Shown here in pieces: positions 17,227-24,755 of a stretch of DNA of 64,000 bases. Source of the DNA: Gemmatimonadota bacterium (GTDB lineage Bacteria > Gemmatimonadota > Gemmatimonadetes > Palauibacterales > KS3-K002). Every line of letters starts with the position of its first letter. Position 1 is the first letter of the stretch. The notes beneath the pieces are model-generated. The model had not been told where the DNA came from, ran no database searches, and saw only the letters and a program-made list of their open reading frames with translations. A program made the translations under genes and the position numbers. The DNA is taken from NCBI GenBank assembly GCA_020344215.1, contig CP070815.1:320461-384460 (forward strand), in the 5' to 3' direction.

Positions 17227-17313
17227 GAGGCCGGTGGAGATCCTTGCCGCCACTAGCGATTGTGTCGACACGGTAACGACGGGGTGCGGCGGGGAGGCGA
17301 TGAGGATCATCCA

Positions 17314-19605
17314 GTGAGCCCTTCCGACACAGGCGACGACCAGAAGGCCGGGGTCGGCTACGAGCGACCCCACCTCGAGGACTATTGGCGCGTCATCCGG
17401 CGACGTGCCTGGCTGATCTCACTCACAACACTCGTCGCGCTCGTCGCCGCCGTGTGGGCGGCGTCGAGGCAACCTCAGCTCTATCGGACTTCCCTCACCC
17501 TGCAAGTGGGTGATCCACGCGGCCGCCTGGGACAACTGGGCGACATCGACGTCTCGCCCAACATGCTGTGGACCGATCCGGTCGAGTCGGAGGTCCAGCA
17601 GCTGACGACCCAGGCGGTGGCAAAGTCTGTGGTCGATTCGCTGCAGTTGCGTGCTCAGTCGCCGGACCTGTTCCGCGTATTCCTGATCGAGGACGTGAGG
17701 ATCGACCCGGTTGCGGCGGTCGCAGACTACAGCGTCCGCATCGCCGGCGGCGGGTCGCTGACTATCGAGGGCGGTGGGCAGGGCGCTCCCGTCCAGGCGA
17801 GGGTTGGGGAACGGGTGCGTTTCCCGGCCGGCTACGTCGTCGTGAGCCCGAGGGCCCAGCAGGGCGAGTACACACTCAGGGTGATCTCCCAGACGCACGC
17901 AGAGAACCTGGTCAGGGGCGGTTTGGCAGCTAGCACCCGGCCAGAGACAAATCTGATCGACGTAACCTACCAGATCGGCGATCCGTATCTGGCTCCAGAG
18001 ATTCTCAACCAGGTGGCGGAAGCCCTGCGCCAGATCGGAGTGCGGAGGGCTCGGGCCTGGGCTCAGTCCAGAACGGAGTTCATCGGCAACAGGTTGGCCG
18101 AAGCGGGGCGGGCGTTGCGGGAAGCCCTCGAGGCGGTCGAGAGCTACAAAGAGGGTCGAGGACTCACCAGCCTGCAGAGCGAAGAGGGTCGCGTCCTGCG
18201 CCGCATGGCGACGCTTCAGACCGACCTGGAGGATCTTGTCCTCGAGAAGAACATCTACACGTCTCTCGTCACACAGATCCGTAGCGCGGGTCTACGCCCG
18301 GCGGACGTTCAACAGTTCGCCGTGCTCTCCGACGAGGACGTGAACCGCACCGTCCAGTACTACTACGACGAGCTACTCCGGTTGCTCGAGGAGCGCGCAA
18401 GCCAGCTCGGCCCGCTCGGCAAGGATCCCGCGCACCCGGCGATCGTCGCACTCGACCGGCGCATTGCCGATACCCAGCAGCAGCTGCTGTCCGCCGCCGA
18501 GAACGCGATCGCCGCCGTCGACCTCCGCATCGAGACGCTCACAGGCGCGTTATCCGAGAACCAGGCTGATCTGCGCAGATTGCCAGCGGTGGAGACAGAG
18601 CTGGCGCAGCTCCAGAACGAGGTGGAGATCCACTCGGACATGTACAAGTACCTCCTGTCGAGGTATCAGGAATCGCAGATCGCCGAGGCGGAGATCTCCC
18701 CGTATGTGGATGTGCTCGACCCGGCCTCCGGAGCGTCGCCGGTCAGCGGCGGCAGGCGGATCAACATCATCTTCGGCGGCCTGCTCGGGCTCCTGCTCGG
18801 CTTAGCCGCTGCCTTCTTCCTCGAGTATCTGGATCGCTCTGTCCAGTCAACCTCCGACGTTGAATCGAAGCTGGGGTTGGCCGTGCTCGGCTGGATTCCC
18901 AAGGTGGAGGCGGACGGTGAGAGGCGGGCGATCCCGCTGGTCACGGAACTCGATCCGGAAGGTCCCGCCGCCGAAGCCTACCGAGTGCTTCGCACCAACC
19001 TCGCATTCTCCACAGCACGCGAGCACCCGCTCTACAGCCTCGTATTCACCAGTCCGGGCCCGGGCGAAGGCAAGTCCACAACCGTGGCGAACCTCGGCGC
19101 TGTGCTGGCCACACGCGGCGATCGCACATTGCTCATCGATGCCGACCTCCGACGCGGCGAGCTCCACGACGCCTTCGACCTACTGCGTTCACCCGGTCTC
19201 AGCGACCTGCTGGTCGGCGAGCTCGACCAACGAGAGGCGATCCGGCCCGCCGTACGCCCCGGGCTCGACCTGCTGCCGGCCGGCAAGCGACCGCCGAACC
19301 CTTCCGAGCTACTTGGATCGCAAGCGATGGCGAGCTTGCTGGCAGAGTGGCGCGAAGTCTACCGCTGGGTGCTGCTCGATGCTCCACCCGTCCTCGCCGT
19401 CACCGACGCCGCGGTGCTGGCCGCGCTGACAGACGGCGCGGTTCTCGTCATGAGGGCGGGGGAGACGGATCGGCGAGCCGGCTGGCAGGGGATCCAGCAG
19501 TTGCGCCGGGTCGACGCCCGGATCGTTGGCGCGGTGTTGAACGAGGTGGATCCTCAGCTTACCTCAGACCGCTACTACCTCGACTACTATTACGCGAAGT
19601 CGTAG
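17314..19605 (+). CDS. Wzc-type polysaccharide copolymerase / bacterial tyrosine kinase
   Basis: An inner-membrane BY-kinase with a chain-length-control domain, used for extracellular or capsular polysaccharide export (763 residues). TM1 is AWLISLTTLVALVAAVWA and TM2 is IIFGGLLGLLLGLAAAFFLE, flanking a long periplasmic coiled-coil Wzz domain. The kinase has Walker A SPGPGEGKSTT, Walker A' LLIDADLRRGELH, Walker B VLLDAPPVL and a tyrosine cluster DRYYLDYYYAKS as the autophosphorylation tail. GTG 17314 starts just before PSDTGDDQK; an earlier in-frame start would add 18 residues. No Wza, Wzx, Wzy or phosphatase gene is adjacent; it converges on the STAS/GHKL gene row. Confidence 0.92.
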   Translation: MSPSDTGDDQKAGVGYERPHLEDYWRVIRRRAWLISLTTLVALVAAVWAASRQPQLYRTSLTLQVGDPRGRLGQLGDIDVSPNMLWTDPVESEVQQLTTQAVAKSVVDSLQLRAQSPDLFRVFLIEDVRIDPVAAVADYSVRIAGGGSLTIEGGGQGAPVQARVGERVRFPAGYVVVSPRAQQGEYTLRVISQTHAENLVRGGLAASTRPETNLIDVTYQIGDPYLAPEILNQVAEALRQIGVRRARAWAQSRTEFIGNRLAEAGRALREALEAVESYKEGRGLTSLQSEEGRVLRRMATLQTDLEDLVLEKNIYTSLVTQIRSAGLRPADVQQFAVLSDEDVNRTVQYYYDELLRLLEERASQLGPLGKDPAHPAIVALDRRIADTQQQLLSAAENAIAAVDLRIETLTGALSENQADLRRLPAVETELAQLQNEVEIHSDMYKYLLSRYQESQIAEAEISPYVDVLDPASGASPVSGGRRINIIFGGLLGLLLGLAAAFFLEYLDRSVQSTSDVESKLGLAVLGWIPKVEADGERRAIPLVTELDPEGPAAEAYRVLRTNLAFSTAREHPLYSLVFTSPGPGEGKSTTVANLGAVLATRGDRTLLIDADLRRGELHDAFDLLRSPGLSDLLVGELDQREAIRPAVRPGLDLLPAGKRPPNPSELLGSQAMASLLAEWREVYRWVLLDAPPVLAVTDAAVLAALTDGAVLVMRAGETDRRAGWQGIQQLRRVDARIVGAVLNEVDPQLTSDRYYLDYYYAKS

Positions 19606-19631: not shown

Positions 19632-20375
19632 TCAGTAGGCGGGAAGCGGCTTGCTCCCTCCCGGAGCGGAGGGATAGGGGTCGGTGTCTCCCGACGGGCG
19701 CGGGTGGCCGTCACCACCGCTCGGCTCGGGACCGTATGGCGCCATCTCTTCTGCAGCGGCGGGGTATCTGCCGGCCTCCGGTGCTTCACCGCCGTCCCGC
19801 CGGCTGAGTACGGCCGGCAGGCTCGAGAAGCTGTCGAAACTCTCCGGCACGGCTACACGCCAGTTCACCAGCCTGCGCAGCCACGAGCTCGCGGTTGCCT
19901 GGTTCACGCCGTAGGTGGATGCGAATTCGGAGGCGCCTAGACGGCCCATCCGATCGAGGCAGTCCCAAGCGGCGCGCAGCCGGCCGGGCGCCGGTCCCCA
20001 CAGGGCCGGTCGGCCGGACTCGACCGCGACCAGCAACAGGTTATGCCGCCGCAGCACGGCATCGATGGGATCCCTGTGGTGCTCCAAGACGCCCTGCACG
20101 ATGAAGAAGGCATCGGAGGGACGATCAGAGCGCAGGTACCGCCTGAGCAGCTTCGCTATCACCTCGTCGGCACAGCTGAAGTCGAGGACGCCGACCTGAG
20201 AGAAGTCGAGCACCGACACGCAGCGACCCCGGCCGCCCTGTAGCTGCTCCTCGATCGCTGAACGCACCGCCCGACCCGTGGGGCGCGTGACTAGGTTGCT
20301 GTAGAACGTCGCCACCGAGGTATGGACCACGCTGTCCACAACTTTCCCCGTCATGCCCGTCGCCGGATCACCCAT
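19632..20375 (-). CDS. STAS-like (DUF4325-type) protein with a C-terminal helix-turn-helix
   Basis: A 247-residue protein of unusual architecture. Residues about 20-125 contain VSVLDFSQVGVLDFSCADEV, resembling STAS-like domains annotated DUF4325. A winged-helix-like segment (about 140-175) includes LGASEFASTYGVNQATASSW. The tail of about 65 residues is Pro/Gly/Ala rich and probably disordered. ATG 20375 was chosen because AGGAGG lies six nt upstream; the TTG at 20390 would place that ribosome site inside the gene. It follows the GHKL ATPase gene by 11 bp, so the two are likely made together. A DNA-binding output of a partner-switch pathway is inference. Confidence 0.7.
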   Translation of the reverse strand: MGDPATGMTGKVVDSVVHTSVATFYSNLVTRPTGRAVRSAIEEQLQGGRGRCVSVLDFSQVGVLDFSCADEVIAKLLRRYLRSDRPSDAFFIVQGVLEHHRDPIDAVLRRHNLLLVAVESGRPALWGPAPGRLRAAWDCLDRMGRLGASEFASTYGVNQATASSWLRRLVNWRVAVPESFDSFSSLPAVLSRRDGGEAPEAGRYPAAAEEMAPYGPEPSGGDGHPRPSGDTDPYPSAPGGSKPLPAY

Positions 20376-20386
20376 TCCCATCCTCC

Positions 20387-21313
20387 TCAATCACCGCCAC
20401 CCGGCGGGACGACTTGCGGTAGCACCACCTGGATCTGCGCACCTGGGAAGTCCGGTAGGCCGCTGGCGATGGGCTGCTTGTCGATCCAGTCGGGCACCTC
20501 GGCGATCTGCGCCGTGCCGCTCCGAATCGTGAAGAACCCGTTCCACCGCAGCACCTGCTTCCGAATGCCCTGTAAGCCCTGGCCGCGACCCGGGTCGCGG
20601 TAGCGTGAGACGCCATGCAGAAAGGCCGCCTCAAGCGCCGTCTCGTCCGACCAGCGGTCACCGTAACGCTGTGCATGCTCCCGAGCAAGCGAGCCACGGA
20701 ATCCCATGCCCACATCCATCACGGCGATGACCACGACCTGCCGCCCCAGTCGTTGCTTCCAGTTGTACGTCTGCGCCGAGACCCAGCCGTCGGTCCCGGC
20801 GTGCTCGACGATGTTCTGGCACACCTCGGACAGGATCACGCTGAAATGAAGCACCGCCGGTGGCGGGTAGCCGAGTCGCTTGCCCAGAATCGCGGCGGCG
20901 CGGTCACGCACCCTGTCGACCACGTCATGCACATCTTGGTGAGACCGGACCGGCGTGATCTCCAGCAAGGCGTCGGACTCGCCCGCCGCTCGCTTCCTGA
21001 CGTGCCCCTGGAAGTCGAACAGCTCGTGGGCGTGCTCGTAGAACCGGATGCGGCCGAGGTAGCTCGCCACCTCCTTACTCTCAGGAGGCTCCAGCAAGGG
21101 CCGCTCGCCAAAGCGCTCTTGCCACGCGGCGCCTGCGGCTAAGAGCCCGAGGATCCCGTACGGGCTAACCCAGCGGACGTGCCGGGCGTCGAACAGAGCA
21201 CGTCCACCCTCCGCGCCCGCCCAACCGGACACGAGCGTCTCGAACCCGCGATCATCCAGCGTCTCAGCCACGGGGAGGACGACCGTCACCGTACGCTCAC
21301 CCCCCGCTGCCAC
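20387..21313 (-). CDS. STAS-like domain fused to a GHKL (HATPase_c) ATPase
   Basis: A 308-residue protein. The N-terminal part (about 10-100, FDARHVRWVSPYGILGLLAA) looks STAS-like. The C-terminal part is a GHKL ATPase: N-box LSEVCQNIVEHA, G1-box VMDVGMGF and G2-box GRGQGLQGI, all intact. It has no histidine-phosphorylation or transmembrane domain, so it resembles an anti-sigma/serine-kinase-type switch more than a sensor kinase. The GTG start is 3 bp after the pfkB-like stop. Its likely partner is the downstream STAS-like/HTH protein. The fusion suggests an intramolecular version of the usual kinase-antagonist pair. Confidence 0.75.
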   Translation of the reverse strand: MAAGGERTVTVVLPVAETLDDRGFETLVSGWAGAEGGRALFDARHVRWVSPYGILGLLAAGAAWQERFGERPLLEPPESKEVASYLGRIRFYEHAHELFDFQGHVRKRAAGESDALLEITPVRSHQDVHDVVDRVRDRAAAILGKRLGYPPPAVLHFSVILSEVCQNIVEHAGTDGWVSAQTYNWKQRLGRQVVVIAVMDVGMGFRGSLAREHAQRYGDRWSDETALEAAFLHGVSRYRDPGRGQGLQGIRKQVLRWNGFFTIRSGTAQIAEVPDWIDKQPIASGLPDFPGAQIQVVLPQVVPPGGGD

Positions 21314-21316
21314 CGG

Positions 21317-22291
21317 CTAGGCACGCTCGATCTCTCCCTTCAAGAAACTGTTCAACCCCGAGGCGCCGCGGTGGGCGACGGAACGGCTGGCTGCGGCATT
21401 GGCCCGGCGCATCGCCGCCTCCACCTCGTGGCCGTCGAGCAGCGCCCGGAACACGGTCATTCCCCAGACGTCACCGCAGCCCGTCGGGTCGCCACCTCGC
21501 ACCGCTTCCGCCGTCACCTTGCCAGTGCGAACGGAGTCAGGCCCCTCCAGGCGAGCGCGCACCGCTTCCAGAGGAAGCGCATCGGGAGCCATCACATACG
21601 CCGCGCCCTCGGCCCCGAGCGTCACGAACAAGAGCCGCGTCTCTCGACCGACGGCGGCGGCGGCAAAGGCCCACGGATCGCCCCAGTGCGCGGCGAGGGC
21701 CGCGAGCTCATCTTCGTTGACCTGCACGACGTCGAAGCAGGCGAGCCACTCCGACCAGCGGTCGAGCGACCGCCGCCGCCGTTCGCCGTCGCGCCCGGTC
21801 GCTAGCATGAGTGAGTGGATGTCCACGTAGATCGGTCCGTCGAATCCGCGCCGCAATTGCTGGGCGACCTCCAGGTCAAACTCGAGGCCCGTGATGAAGT
21901 TCACGTACAATGCTTCGCAACCGGCGATCCGCGGCCCCAGCTCTTCCCAGGTCCACGCCGGCACGCCGCCTGTGAGCCGCTCGGCACGCCGCGCCGGACC
22001 GGTGTATCGCAACTCCACCCGCGGGTTGGGCGCGTCGACCACCGCTACCGCCTCGTCCGTCTCGACGACGGACAGGTCTCTCAGGAAGCGAAAGCCCTGC
22101 TCCGCCAGATCGCTACCCAGCTTGATTAGCGGCCGGACTCTGGTCTTTCCCGGCGTGAAGGCGTCGGCCGCAGCGAGGGCGTAGCTGATTCCCCCCCACT
22201 CCTCCACCGGCGATCTGACGTCTGACTGCCGCCAGATCGTGTCCCACACCATAGTGCCGATGACCCCTAGGATGCCCATGCTGTCCGGCAT
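21317..22291 (-). CDS. PfkB-family carbohydrate kinase
   Basis: A ribokinase-like sugar or nucleoside kinase of 324 residues. The N-terminus MPDSMGILGVIGTMVWDTIW replaces the classic start. GGISYALAAADAF is the substrate-binding loop, VNEDELAAL is the usual NE-E motif, and GGDPTGCGDVWGMT holds the anion hole and catalytic Asp. Substrate specificity cannot be read from sequence. ATG 22291 was chosen because this is where family-like sequence begins. It is followed within 3 bp by the GHKL gene and is 165 bp downstream of the ROK kinase gene on the same strand. Confidence 0.88.
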   Translation of the reverse strand: MPDSMGILGVIGTMVWDTIWRQSDVRSPVEEWGGISYALAAADAFTPGKTRVRPLIKLGSDLAEQGFRFLRDLSVVETDEAVAVVDAPNPRVELRYTGPARRAERLTGGVPAWTWEELGPRIAGCEALYVNFITGLEFDLEVAQQLRRGFDGPIYVDIHSLMLATGRDGERRRRSLDRWSEWLACFDVVQVNEDELAALAAHWGDPWAFAAAAVGRETRLLFVTLGAEGAAYVMAPDALPLEAVRARLEGPDSVRTGKVTAEAVRGGDPTGCGDVWGMTVFRALLDGHEVEAAMRRANAAASRSVAHRGASGLNSFLKGEIERA

Positions 22292-22456
22292 TCCGATCCC
22301 GGAGCCACGCTCGCTGTGTTGAGGCCGGATCTCCCGCTGTAGCGCTCGCCAGCCCAGCCGCACGGTGTTCTGCGCGCGACGAGCGGATCGTGGAGGGTAC
22401 CGTTGCCCAAGCTAATCACTTCCCTTCGCGAGCGCGAGCCTTCATTCCTGCCAGCC

Positions 22457-23455
22457 TCACACTTCGCCGCACTTCTCCCGCTTGAAGCAGGCCACGGCGC
22501 CGATGATGCCGGCGAGGCCCTTCAGCCCCGAGGGGACTATTCTGCACGCCTCTTCCGCGACCCGGAACGCGCGGCGCCTTATCTCGGCGCGCAGCGGCGC
22601 GAACAGGTGATCGCCAGCCCGGGTCACGCCGCCGGATATCACCAGCACCTCCGGGTTGAGGATGTTGATGACGTTGGCCAGGCCGACGCCCAGAAACTTC
22701 GCCGTGTCGTGCATGACCTCGGTTGCGTAAGGATCCCCCTGGACCACAGCCTCGAAGACCGTCCCCGCCGTTATGTTCTGGACATCCCCGGCCAGCTCGG
22801 GCAGGATCGAGCCGACCCCCGAGTCGAGCCCCTCTATGGCTCGCGCAGCGATCGCCGGGCCCGAAGCGTAGGCCTCCAAGCAGCCGTAGTTGCCGCAGTT
22901 GCACTTGCGGCCGGTGGAGTCGATCGTCATGTGTCCGATCTCGGCCGCCGCGTCATTGGCGCCGTGATACAGCTCGCCGTTAAGCACGATCCCACCGCCG
23001 ATCCCGGTGCCCAGTGTCACGCCGACCAGCGTGTCCACCCCACGCCCGGCGCCCAGCCACCACTCACCGTAGGTCGCCGCGTTCGCATCGTTGTCGAGGC
23101 TCGCCGGCAGCCCAACGGCGTTCTGAATCAGGTCACGGAGCGGGAAATTGCGCCAGCCGAGGTTCGGCGTGCTGATGACCGTGCCGGTCTTCCGATCCAG
23201 CGGTCCCGGCGACCCGATGCCGACGCCCGCAAACGTCTCGCGACCGACGCCCTTCTCATCCATCACCTCGCGCATCGATTCCTCGATCATCCTCACGACG
23301 CGATCGACGATGAACTTCGCACCGCGCATGACCTCCGTCGGCTCGCTGCGCACGGCAATGGGTAGGGCACCCTCGAACGGCAGCACCCCCACGTTCAGGT
23401 TCGTGCCGCCGATGTCCACTCCAACGATCCAATCACCTTCCGGCACTTTAGACAT
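22457..23455 (-). CDS. ROK-family sugar kinase, probable glucokinase
   Basis: A 332-residue ROK kinase. ATP-binding is seen in VGVDIGGTNLNVGV; DNDANAATYGEWWLGAGR carries the catalytic Asp; TLGTGIGGGIV is the phosphate loop. The zinc site is GHM followed by CNCGNYGCLEAYASG, matching the GH-CxCGxxGCxE signature. No helix-turn-helix precedes the kinase, so it is an enzyme and not a NagC/XylR-type repressor. Glucose is the commonest substrate for this form, but others are possible. It overlaps the GT9 gene by 8 bp, so the two are cotranscribed. Confidence 0.92.
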   Translation of the reverse strand: MSKVPEGDWIVGVDIGGTNLNVGVLPFEGALPIAVRSEPTEVMRGAKFIVDRVVRMIEESMREVMDEKGVGRETFAGVGIGSPGPLDRKTGTVISTPNLGWRNFPLRDLIQNAVGLPASLDNDANAATYGEWWLGAGRGVDTLVGVTLGTGIGGGIVLNGELYHGANDAAAEIGHMTIDSTGRKCNCGNYGCLEAYASGPAIAARAIEGLDSGVGSILPELAGDVQNITAGTVFEAVVQGDPYATEVMHDTAKFLGVGLANVINILNPEVLVISGGVTRAGDHLFAPLRAEIRRRAFRVAEEACRIVPSGLKGLAGIIGAVACFKREKCGEV

Positions 23456-24491
23456 CGCTTGCAGTCCTCGCTTGACTCATCTGCTGACGGGCCGCCCGCG
23501 CCACGGCCTCCACAGTTATCAGGTGTACACACTCGTCCTGGGCTTCCGGTAGATAGGTACCCTGCCCCCGGCGCCGACATCTGTTCTTGCGGCACGGCGC
23601 GCACGGCAGCTCGGACCGCCAAAGCACGCGTGCACGCGTGCCCAAAGGCCCTGTGTGCTTCGGGTCGCTCGAGCCGAAGATGGCGATTAACGGTGCGCCC
23701 ACAGCCGCCGCCAGGTGCATGGGACCGCTATCGTTGCTGACCACGAGGTCGCACTCACTCAACCCGGCGGCGAGCACGGCGAGGCTGGTTCGCCCACCCA
23801 GATCGATGCCGCGTTTCCCGGCGCCCGCCGCTACGCGGGCCGCCAGCACCTCTTCCCCCGACCCACCGAACACCACGACCGTACCGACCTCCTGACCTAG
23901 CAATCCGGCCAGCGCCGTGTACTTGCCCTCCGGCCACCGACGTGCTGGAGCGTACGAGCTTGGAAAGATCGCCACCGCCGGCCGCTCGAAGCGACCCTCC
24001 ACCAGCTGGCGGAACTGCTCGAGCGCCCGCTCCTGTACTGGAAGGCGCGGCACCGGCGGCTCCCCGCCCTTCCAACCCGGGTCGACCAGCCGCATGTAAA
24101 AGCTCACACGATGCTCGCCGGGCGCCTCCGGGCGAACCGAGCGGTCGGTGAGCAGCAGGCCCCGCCCGTCGGTGGGTGTGCCCCGGCGCCTCGCTATTCC
24201 GGCCAACCGGACGACGGCGGCAGACGAGAAGGATGGGGGGAAGAGGTAGGCCGCGTCGTAGCCGACGTCTCGCAGCCGTGCCGCCGTCCTCCAGATCGCC
24301 CTCGTGCGCCGGAAGGCCATGACCTCAGCCGGGAGACCGGCCGCCTCGAGAACCGGCGCCCACGCCGCAGGGCACCACACGTCGACCCCGCTCTCTGGGT
24401 AGCGCTCCGCCAGACGGCGAAGCGCCGGGATGGCCATGACCACGTCACCCAGATGGTTCGGCGCGCGAGCGTAGACGCGCGGCTCACTCAA
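23448..24491 (-). CDS. Glycosyltransferase family 9 (heptosyltransferase-like)
   Basis: A GT-B enzyme of about 347 residues related to LPS heptosyltransferases. Signatures are RAPNHLGDVVMAIPALRRLA at the N-terminus and VSNDSGPMHLAAAVGAPLI followed by FGSSDPKHTGPLG in the nucleotide-sugar-binding half. CAPCRKNRC and DECVHLITVEAV match the family's C-terminus. TTG 24491 was chosen because GGAGGTAGGAG precedes it and the conserved sequence begins right there; the 94 extra upstream codons are low quality. It is the first gene of the minus-strand row with the two sugar kinases. Confidence 0.87.
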   Translation of the reverse strand: MSEPRVYARAPNHLGDVVMAIPALRRLAERYPESGVDVWCPAAWAPVLEAAGLPAEVMAFRRTRAIWRTAARLRDVGYDAAYLFPPSFSSAAVVRLAGIARRRGTPTDGRGLLLTDRSVRPEAPGEHRVSFYMRLVDPGWKGGEPPVPRLPVQERALEQFRQLVEGRFERPAVAIFPSSYAPARRWPEGKYTALAGLLGQEVGTVVVFGGSGEEVLAARVAAGAGKRGIDLGGRTSLAVLAAGLSECDLVVSNDSGPMHLAAAVGAPLIAIFGSSDPKHTGPLGTRARVLWRSELPCAPCRKNRCRRRGQGTYLPEAQDECVHLITVEAVARAARQQMSQARTASDV

Positions 24492-24755
24492 TACTCTCCT
24501 ACCTCCAGAATGGCTAGGAACGCTTGGGTTGCAGGCCCTCAATATAGGCTGCCGAGAAGGCCCGTGGCAGGGCGTCAGCGGTCGGAAACTTCCCAGGCGG
24601 CTGCGGTGTAGGCTACTGCAGCGGCCTGTAGCGCCGCCACCGGGCTCCGGACCCCCGGAGCACGCGCCGAAAGCCGCCGGATCCCTGAGTCTTGCTACCG
24701 GCCGGCTACCTGCCTCGGCGACGCCCTCTCCCCAGCAACGAACGGAGGAAACCCG

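Follow-up and report, generated by a model that had tools for sequence, protein, structure and literature searches.

Organization of the locus

The window considered here is a stretch of 64,000 nucleotides from a Gemmatimonadota bacterium (GenBank assembly GCA_020344215.1, contig CP070815.1, positions 320,461 to 384,460). A minus-strand row of five open reading frames lies within it. In order of transcription, these encode a GT9 (heptosyltransferase-like) protein (positions 23448-24491 of the window; family scan 1.4e-48), a ROK-family glucokinase-like protein (22457-23455; 9.5e-72), a PfkB-family kinase (21317-22291, or from the ATG at 22279; 8e-12), a STAS-GHKL ATPase/kinase (20387-21313; HATPase_c_2, 4e-5), and a protein that joins a STAS-like (DUF4325-like) domain to a winged helix-turn-helix (wHTH) domain (19632-20390; homologue Pfam matches, structural model and alignment with the repressor CapS). 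A Wzc-type BY-kinase on the plus strand (17260-19605; family scans) converges on the row. This layout, including a 165-bp gap that lies between ROK and pfkB, had been described in a sequence-only reading of the window, and every element was found in its place. The row is not a chance arrangement, since its gene order is conserved across the class.

The last two genes of the row probably encode a CapK/CapS-like switch in which one protein phosphorylates the other, and which is maintained as a core pair on the chromosome. CapK is a kinase activated by single-stranded DNA (ssDNA) with the domain order HTH-STAS-GHKL (Chambers et al., EMBO J, June 2026, PMC13373217), while CapS is a dimeric STAS-wHTH repressor (PMC13373217). 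Phosphorylation of CapS Ser54 by CapK breaks the dimer, releases the DNA and derepresses the adjacent immune operon (PMC13373217). In VapKSC, a similar kinase and STAS protein control the VapC toxin, and VapS provides a precedent for a STAS partner that inhibits an operon enzyme (PMC13373217). With these systems described in June 2026, the earlier claim that no described pathway has this architecture does not hold. Neither Gemmatimonadota nor sugar genes are mentioned in the main text of that paper.

Profile comparisons place the window pair as a distant homologue of CapK/CapS. The STAS/wHTH family matches the CapS profile across both domains (E 1.8e-5) and a Vibrio member at 4.7e-5, and the GHKL family matches a Vibrio CapK-like protein (E 6.7e-7). 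The CapS structures PDB 9z71-9z73 match the CapS family of Vibrio and enterobacterial plasmids. By analogy, the mode of action of the window pair may resemble that of CapK/CapS or VapK/VapS.

Domain architecture of the two proteins

The STAS-GHKL protein has these two domains only, in that order. Its N-terminal STAS domain (21020-21286, minus strand) begins near residue 10, and the phospho-acceptor serine is not conserved there. The GHKL ATPase domain (20417-20971, minus strand) contains N, G1 and G2 boxes, and 115 of 120 homologues have all three intact. An AlphaFold model built on the homologue alignment reached a mean predicted local distance difference test score (pLDDT) of 91 with a STAS-like N-terminus, and 11 of 31 GHKL homologues match STAS_2. 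The architecture proposed from sequence for this protein is thus borne out. A weak PADLOC match to DrmA covers the ATPase part only, and a DrmA identity was rejected.

The partner protein is best started at ATG 20375, 6 nt downstream of GAGGAGG. Its STAS-like domain (19998-20333, minus strand; model residues 15-126) carries invariant LVTRxTGxxxR and DxSCADE motifs. The SCADE serine, Ser67 of the 247-aa form (codon 20175-20177, minus strand), aligns with CapS Ser54 and is present in 119 of 119 homologues. The wHTH domain follows (19821-19985, minus strand; model residues 131-185); within its recognition helix (19863-19901, minus strand), which is basic in the window clade only, R167 and R168 occupy the positions of CapS K151 and K152. 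The AlphaFold model from the homologue alignment exceeds pLDDT 90 over residues 31-190, with lower values at both ends. It is confident over both domains and gives the C-terminal region a winged-helix fold, as the sequence-only reading had anticipated in joining a STAS-like domain to a helix-turn-helix. Foldseek searches with the models of both proteins returned generic CheA P4, RsbS and SpoIIA-type folds and no close match.

Family assignment of the partner depends on its homologues. The window protein alone gives weak Pfam matches to MarR (0.021) and to DUF4325 (PF14213; 11.4 bits, E 0.27, below the gathering cut-off of 23 bits). Homologues match TrmB at 3e-5 (best of six) and DUF4325 at 0.009; the best relatives reach 18-20 bits, and profile comparison links the families. 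Conservation across the family is higher in the STAS domain than in the wHTH domain (48% vs 27%), the latter being absent from 3 of 119 homologues.

Distribution and conservation of the gene pair

A sample of 150 Gemmatimonadota genomes was searched for both proteins. The STAS/wHTH protein was found in 141 of them, each a member of the window's class; six genomes of another class gave no match. The GHKL protein is found in the same 141 genomes, and neither occurs in the other nine, making the two strict partners in the sampled genomes. PfkB of the window type is present in 136 of the 150. Among the best 80 loci listed in a contig scan with the GHKL profile, all are from Gemmatimonadota save a few uncultured-bacterium records and one contig titled Gammaproteobacteria, which is probably mis-binned.

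These 80 loci and 40 others, the latter of 20 kb each, were used to read gene order. GHKL is followed by STAS within 1.3 kb in 113 of 119 loci, PfkB precedes GHKL in 103 of 110, and ROK is upstream of GHKL in 94 of 106. The junctions are short, at 20 bp or less between GHKL and STAS in 111/119 loci and between PfkB and GHKL in 78/105; a 4-bp overlap is the commonest form. GT9 precedes GHKL in 28 of 98 loci. The conserved core is ROK-PfkB-GHKL-STAS, while GT9 and Wzc are local. Of the GT9-ROK-PfkB row to which the pair had been tied, the ROK-PfkB part recurs beside it in other genomes and the GT9 and Wzc parts do not belong to the core. The Wzc-type BY-kinase is convergent in most loci of the window clade and lies outside the unit. 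Six loci have an extra gene between GHKL and STAS, considered as a third component and rejected; it reads as a cyclophilin-type prolyl isomerase in the five of six that were examined.

The conserved region often extends further: 30 of 41 loci have LepA upstream, and 20 of 41 have a cystathionine-synthase-like gene downstream (both names read from sequence). Ancient synteny could thus account for part of the linkage. On this view, the pair would sit beside ROK and PfkB through frozen class synteny and might act in a stress response unrelated to them, such as one to ssDNA like that of CapK/CapS. The loss of PfkB from some genomes that retain the pair is consistent with this, as is the ssDNA signal of CapK, and the near-invariant W48 and W185 of the kinase family, together with arginines R188 and R191, might take part in sensing a nucleic acid. 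Against it stand the short gaps and 4-bp overlaps that join PfkB, GHKL and STAS, the presence of the housekeeping gene ApbC near the pair in only 14 of 40 loci of the first set, and the lack of an aromatic residue at the position of CapK W68. Frozen synteny is a rather unlikely explanation.

Fused and split relatives also point to joint action of the two proteins. Matches to PF14213 in Gemmatimonadota are single chains of the order STAS-GHKL-DUF4325. The window GHKL family aligns with their STAS and GHKL domains (E 3.7e-17), and the partner STAS with their third domain, DUF4325 (E 4e-7). From this domain fusion, the window GHKL and STAS/wHTH proteins are predicted to act jointly. A split pair that includes the wHTH domain is encoded on Nostoc linckia NIES-25 plasmid AP018224 (E 1.1e-22 and 5.1e-9). 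Pairs on a Vibrio plasmid, near a type I restriction gene, and on a Citrobacter plasmid, directly before a multiubiquitin operon, are CapK-CapS by layout.

Some further observations concern these relatives. The PADLOC DrmA model PDLC02567 matches nine of the single-chain STAS-GHKL-DUF4325 proteins, up to 5.6e-40 over its first 400 positions, and thus seems to include a module of this type. On the Nostoc plasmid (5007-10041), the pair is followed by a 377-aa protein, which has no Pfam match and is metallo-beta-lactamase-like by eye, and then by a Prok-E2/ThiF/JAB fusion. On the genome of Marinitoga phage MPV1 (2902-4255), a gene for a STAS-GHKL protein precedes one for a DUF4325-like protein of 124 aa that lacks a wHTH domain.

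The PfkB motifs D17, GG33-34, NxxE 192-195 and GCGD 271-274, which correspond to the catalytic motifs of the PfkB family, are invariant among homologues, so the window PfkB is probably an active kinase. A scan for sigma-70-like promoters found one match in the row against 0.2 expected, CTGCCA-18-TATATT at 24541-24570 on the minus strand, 50 bp before GT9. An Rfam scan of the region gave no match.

Possible DNA binding and the region upstream of pfkB

Direct DNA binding had been put forward as a possible output of the pair. To assess it, the window and its six closest relatives (seven sequences and loci, here the window clade) were compared with the rest of the family without correction for phylogeny. 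The recognition helix has a charge of +2.1 in the window clade vs -1.6 in the rest, and the whole wHTH domain +4.1 vs -1.7. The position of CapS K151 is R or K in all seven clade members, whereas elsewhere it is basic in 5 and acidic in 70 of 111. At matched STAS identity, wHTH identity is 0.54 in the clade vs 0.37 in the rest. DNA binding is thus plausible for the window clade, and recognition-helix charge and conservation led us to reject it as a family-wide property.

In the window clade, the intergenic stretch before pfkB contains a conserved block (22375-22440, minus strand), a candidate promoter or operator. Its core, TTAGCTTG-N7-GTACC (22396-22415, minus strand), contains GGTACC, and the pattern TTAnCTTG-N7-GTACC is invariant in all seven clade loci. 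The basic helix and the conserved block are compatible with a protein and its operator in this clade, which is small; a promoter would account for the block equally well. The core was also considered as a genome-wide operator and rejected, as this genome holds a single exact copy and one-mismatch matches are no more frequent than in the control.

The same data bear on a VapKSC-like mode, in which the STAS/wHTH protein would restrain an operon enzyme, PfkB or ROK, rather than bind DNA, and phosphorylation would release the enzyme. Most family members have a recognition helix that is acidic and poorly conserved, and a few have lost the wHTH domain; both facts would suit such a mode, as would the better conservation of the STAS domain, the tight linkage to PfkB and ROK, and the example of VapS (PMC13373217). 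Yet some genomes keep the pair without PfkB, and the basic helix of the window clade points to DNA there. Overall, this mode is unlikely.

Proposed mechanism

In the CapK/CapS-like switch that we favor, the STAS-GHKL protein would be a serine kinase that docks on the STAS/wHTH protein and phosphorylates the invariant SCADE serine, its putative target. By homology to CapS and VapS, phosphorylation would alter the self-association or contacts of the partner, and hence its output. For the window clade, transcription is the most likely level of output, with the unphosphorylated partner on DNA; the block upstream of pfkB would be its candidate operator, and the pfkB-GHKL-STAS unit would presumably be repressed. 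Most other Gemmatimonadota have a recognition helix devoid of basic residues at the contact position; the output there may instead be a protein contact, as with VapS. The ROK-PfkB linkage makes the state of sugars or sugar phosphates an obvious guess for the input signal, and ssDNA is an alternative guess from CapK.

The switch could be reset by phosphatases encoded elsewhere. This genome encodes two SpoIIE-type phosphatases away from the locus. Separately, an 833-aa frame at 1745196-1747133, outside the window, combines HATPase_c_2 (2.8e-24) with a SpoIIE phosphatase domain (1.6e-38) and is possibly a separate partner-switch protein of this genome.

The phosphatases would also suit a classical partner switch, in which the GHKL protein would act as an anti-sigma factor antagonized by the STAS protein, with an alternative sigma factor encoded elsewhere as the output. 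The GHKL and STAS folds, the invariant serine and weak RsbA/RsbW matches are in keeping with it. However, the conserved cluster has no sigma gene, no SigB/F/G factor scores above the TIGR02980 cut-off in this genome, the wHTH domain is left unexplained, and the closest relatives, CapS and VapS, have non-sigma outputs. Such a switch is very unlikely, in line with the earlier expectation that something other than a SigB/F/G factor is probably the output.

Several observations weigh against the CapK/CapS-like reading. A few genomes retain the GHKL-STAS pair without PfkB, so the pair is not strictly PfkB-dependent. The window kinase lacks the N-terminal HTH of CapK, and the position of W68, the ssDNA-stacking residue of CapK, is non-aromatic (S/T in 86 of 120 homologues), while the family has its other near-invariant aromatics at W48 and W185. 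CapS N145 and the wing glycines (GG) are absent from the window family. Outside the window clade, most members of the family have acidic recognition helices, and the charge contrast may reflect a single event, as the clade sequences are not independent of one another. The TTAA palindrome operator is absent from the pfkB gap, and the conserved block holds no palindrome beyond the 6-bp GGTACC. The kinase and substrate genes abut, leaving no gap for such palindromes, and the downstream gene, whose promoter is the other site of TTAA palindromes in CapK/CapS, is convergent here.

The published account of CapK/CapS concerns immune operons and presents the switch as controlling adjacent pathways (PMC13373217). 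A distant relative occurs here as a core pair in nearly all sampled Gemmatimonadota, beside sugar kinases and without the known DNA-damage sensor features of CapK. The switch would then be a regulatory device of general use that predates immunity or reaches beyond it. A bolder version, in which a vertically inherited, class-wide switch reads sugar or envelope metabolism rather than DNA damage, and its output has shifted between DNA binding in the window clade and sugar-kinase binding in most other lineages, is speculative and on balance rather unlikely.

Comparison with known systems

Like SpoIIAB-SpoIIAA and RsbW-RsbV, the window pair consists of a GHKL kinase and a STAS substrate with a serine at the equivalent of SpoIIAA Ser58. 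In contrast to these systems, the window kinase has a STAS domain of its own, the substrate has a wHTH domain, and the cluster contains no sigma factor. The STAS-GHKL-DUF4325 single chains (PF14213) of some Gemmatimonadota share the same three domains in the same order. They differ in being fused, lacking the wHTH domain, and being sporadic rather than core, and they are uncharacterised.

VapK-VapS-VapC resembles the window pair in having a STAS-GHKL kinase without an HTH, followed by a STAS protein with a conserved serine. The window partner has a full winged helix, however, whereas VapS has a short C-terminal tail. There is also no third gene of the VapC/PIN type; the next gene is the convergent Wzc here, and a cystathionine-synthase-like gene or others elsewhere.

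CapK/CapS differs in its setting, as the window pair is chromosomal, core and class-wide, in a ROK-PfkB row, and PADLOC gave no match among 10 neighbouring proteins, hence no sign of an adjacent immune operon. We do not assign the pair to CapK/CapS itself, since the HTH, the operator and the immune-operon features were looked for and are absent. The likeness lies in the common plan: a kinase gene followed by an adjacent STAS-wHTH substrate gene, a STAS-GHKL kinase core with a STAS-wHTH partner, an invariant serine at the position of CapS Ser54, and, in the window clade, basic recognition-helix residues at the positions of CapS K151 and K152.

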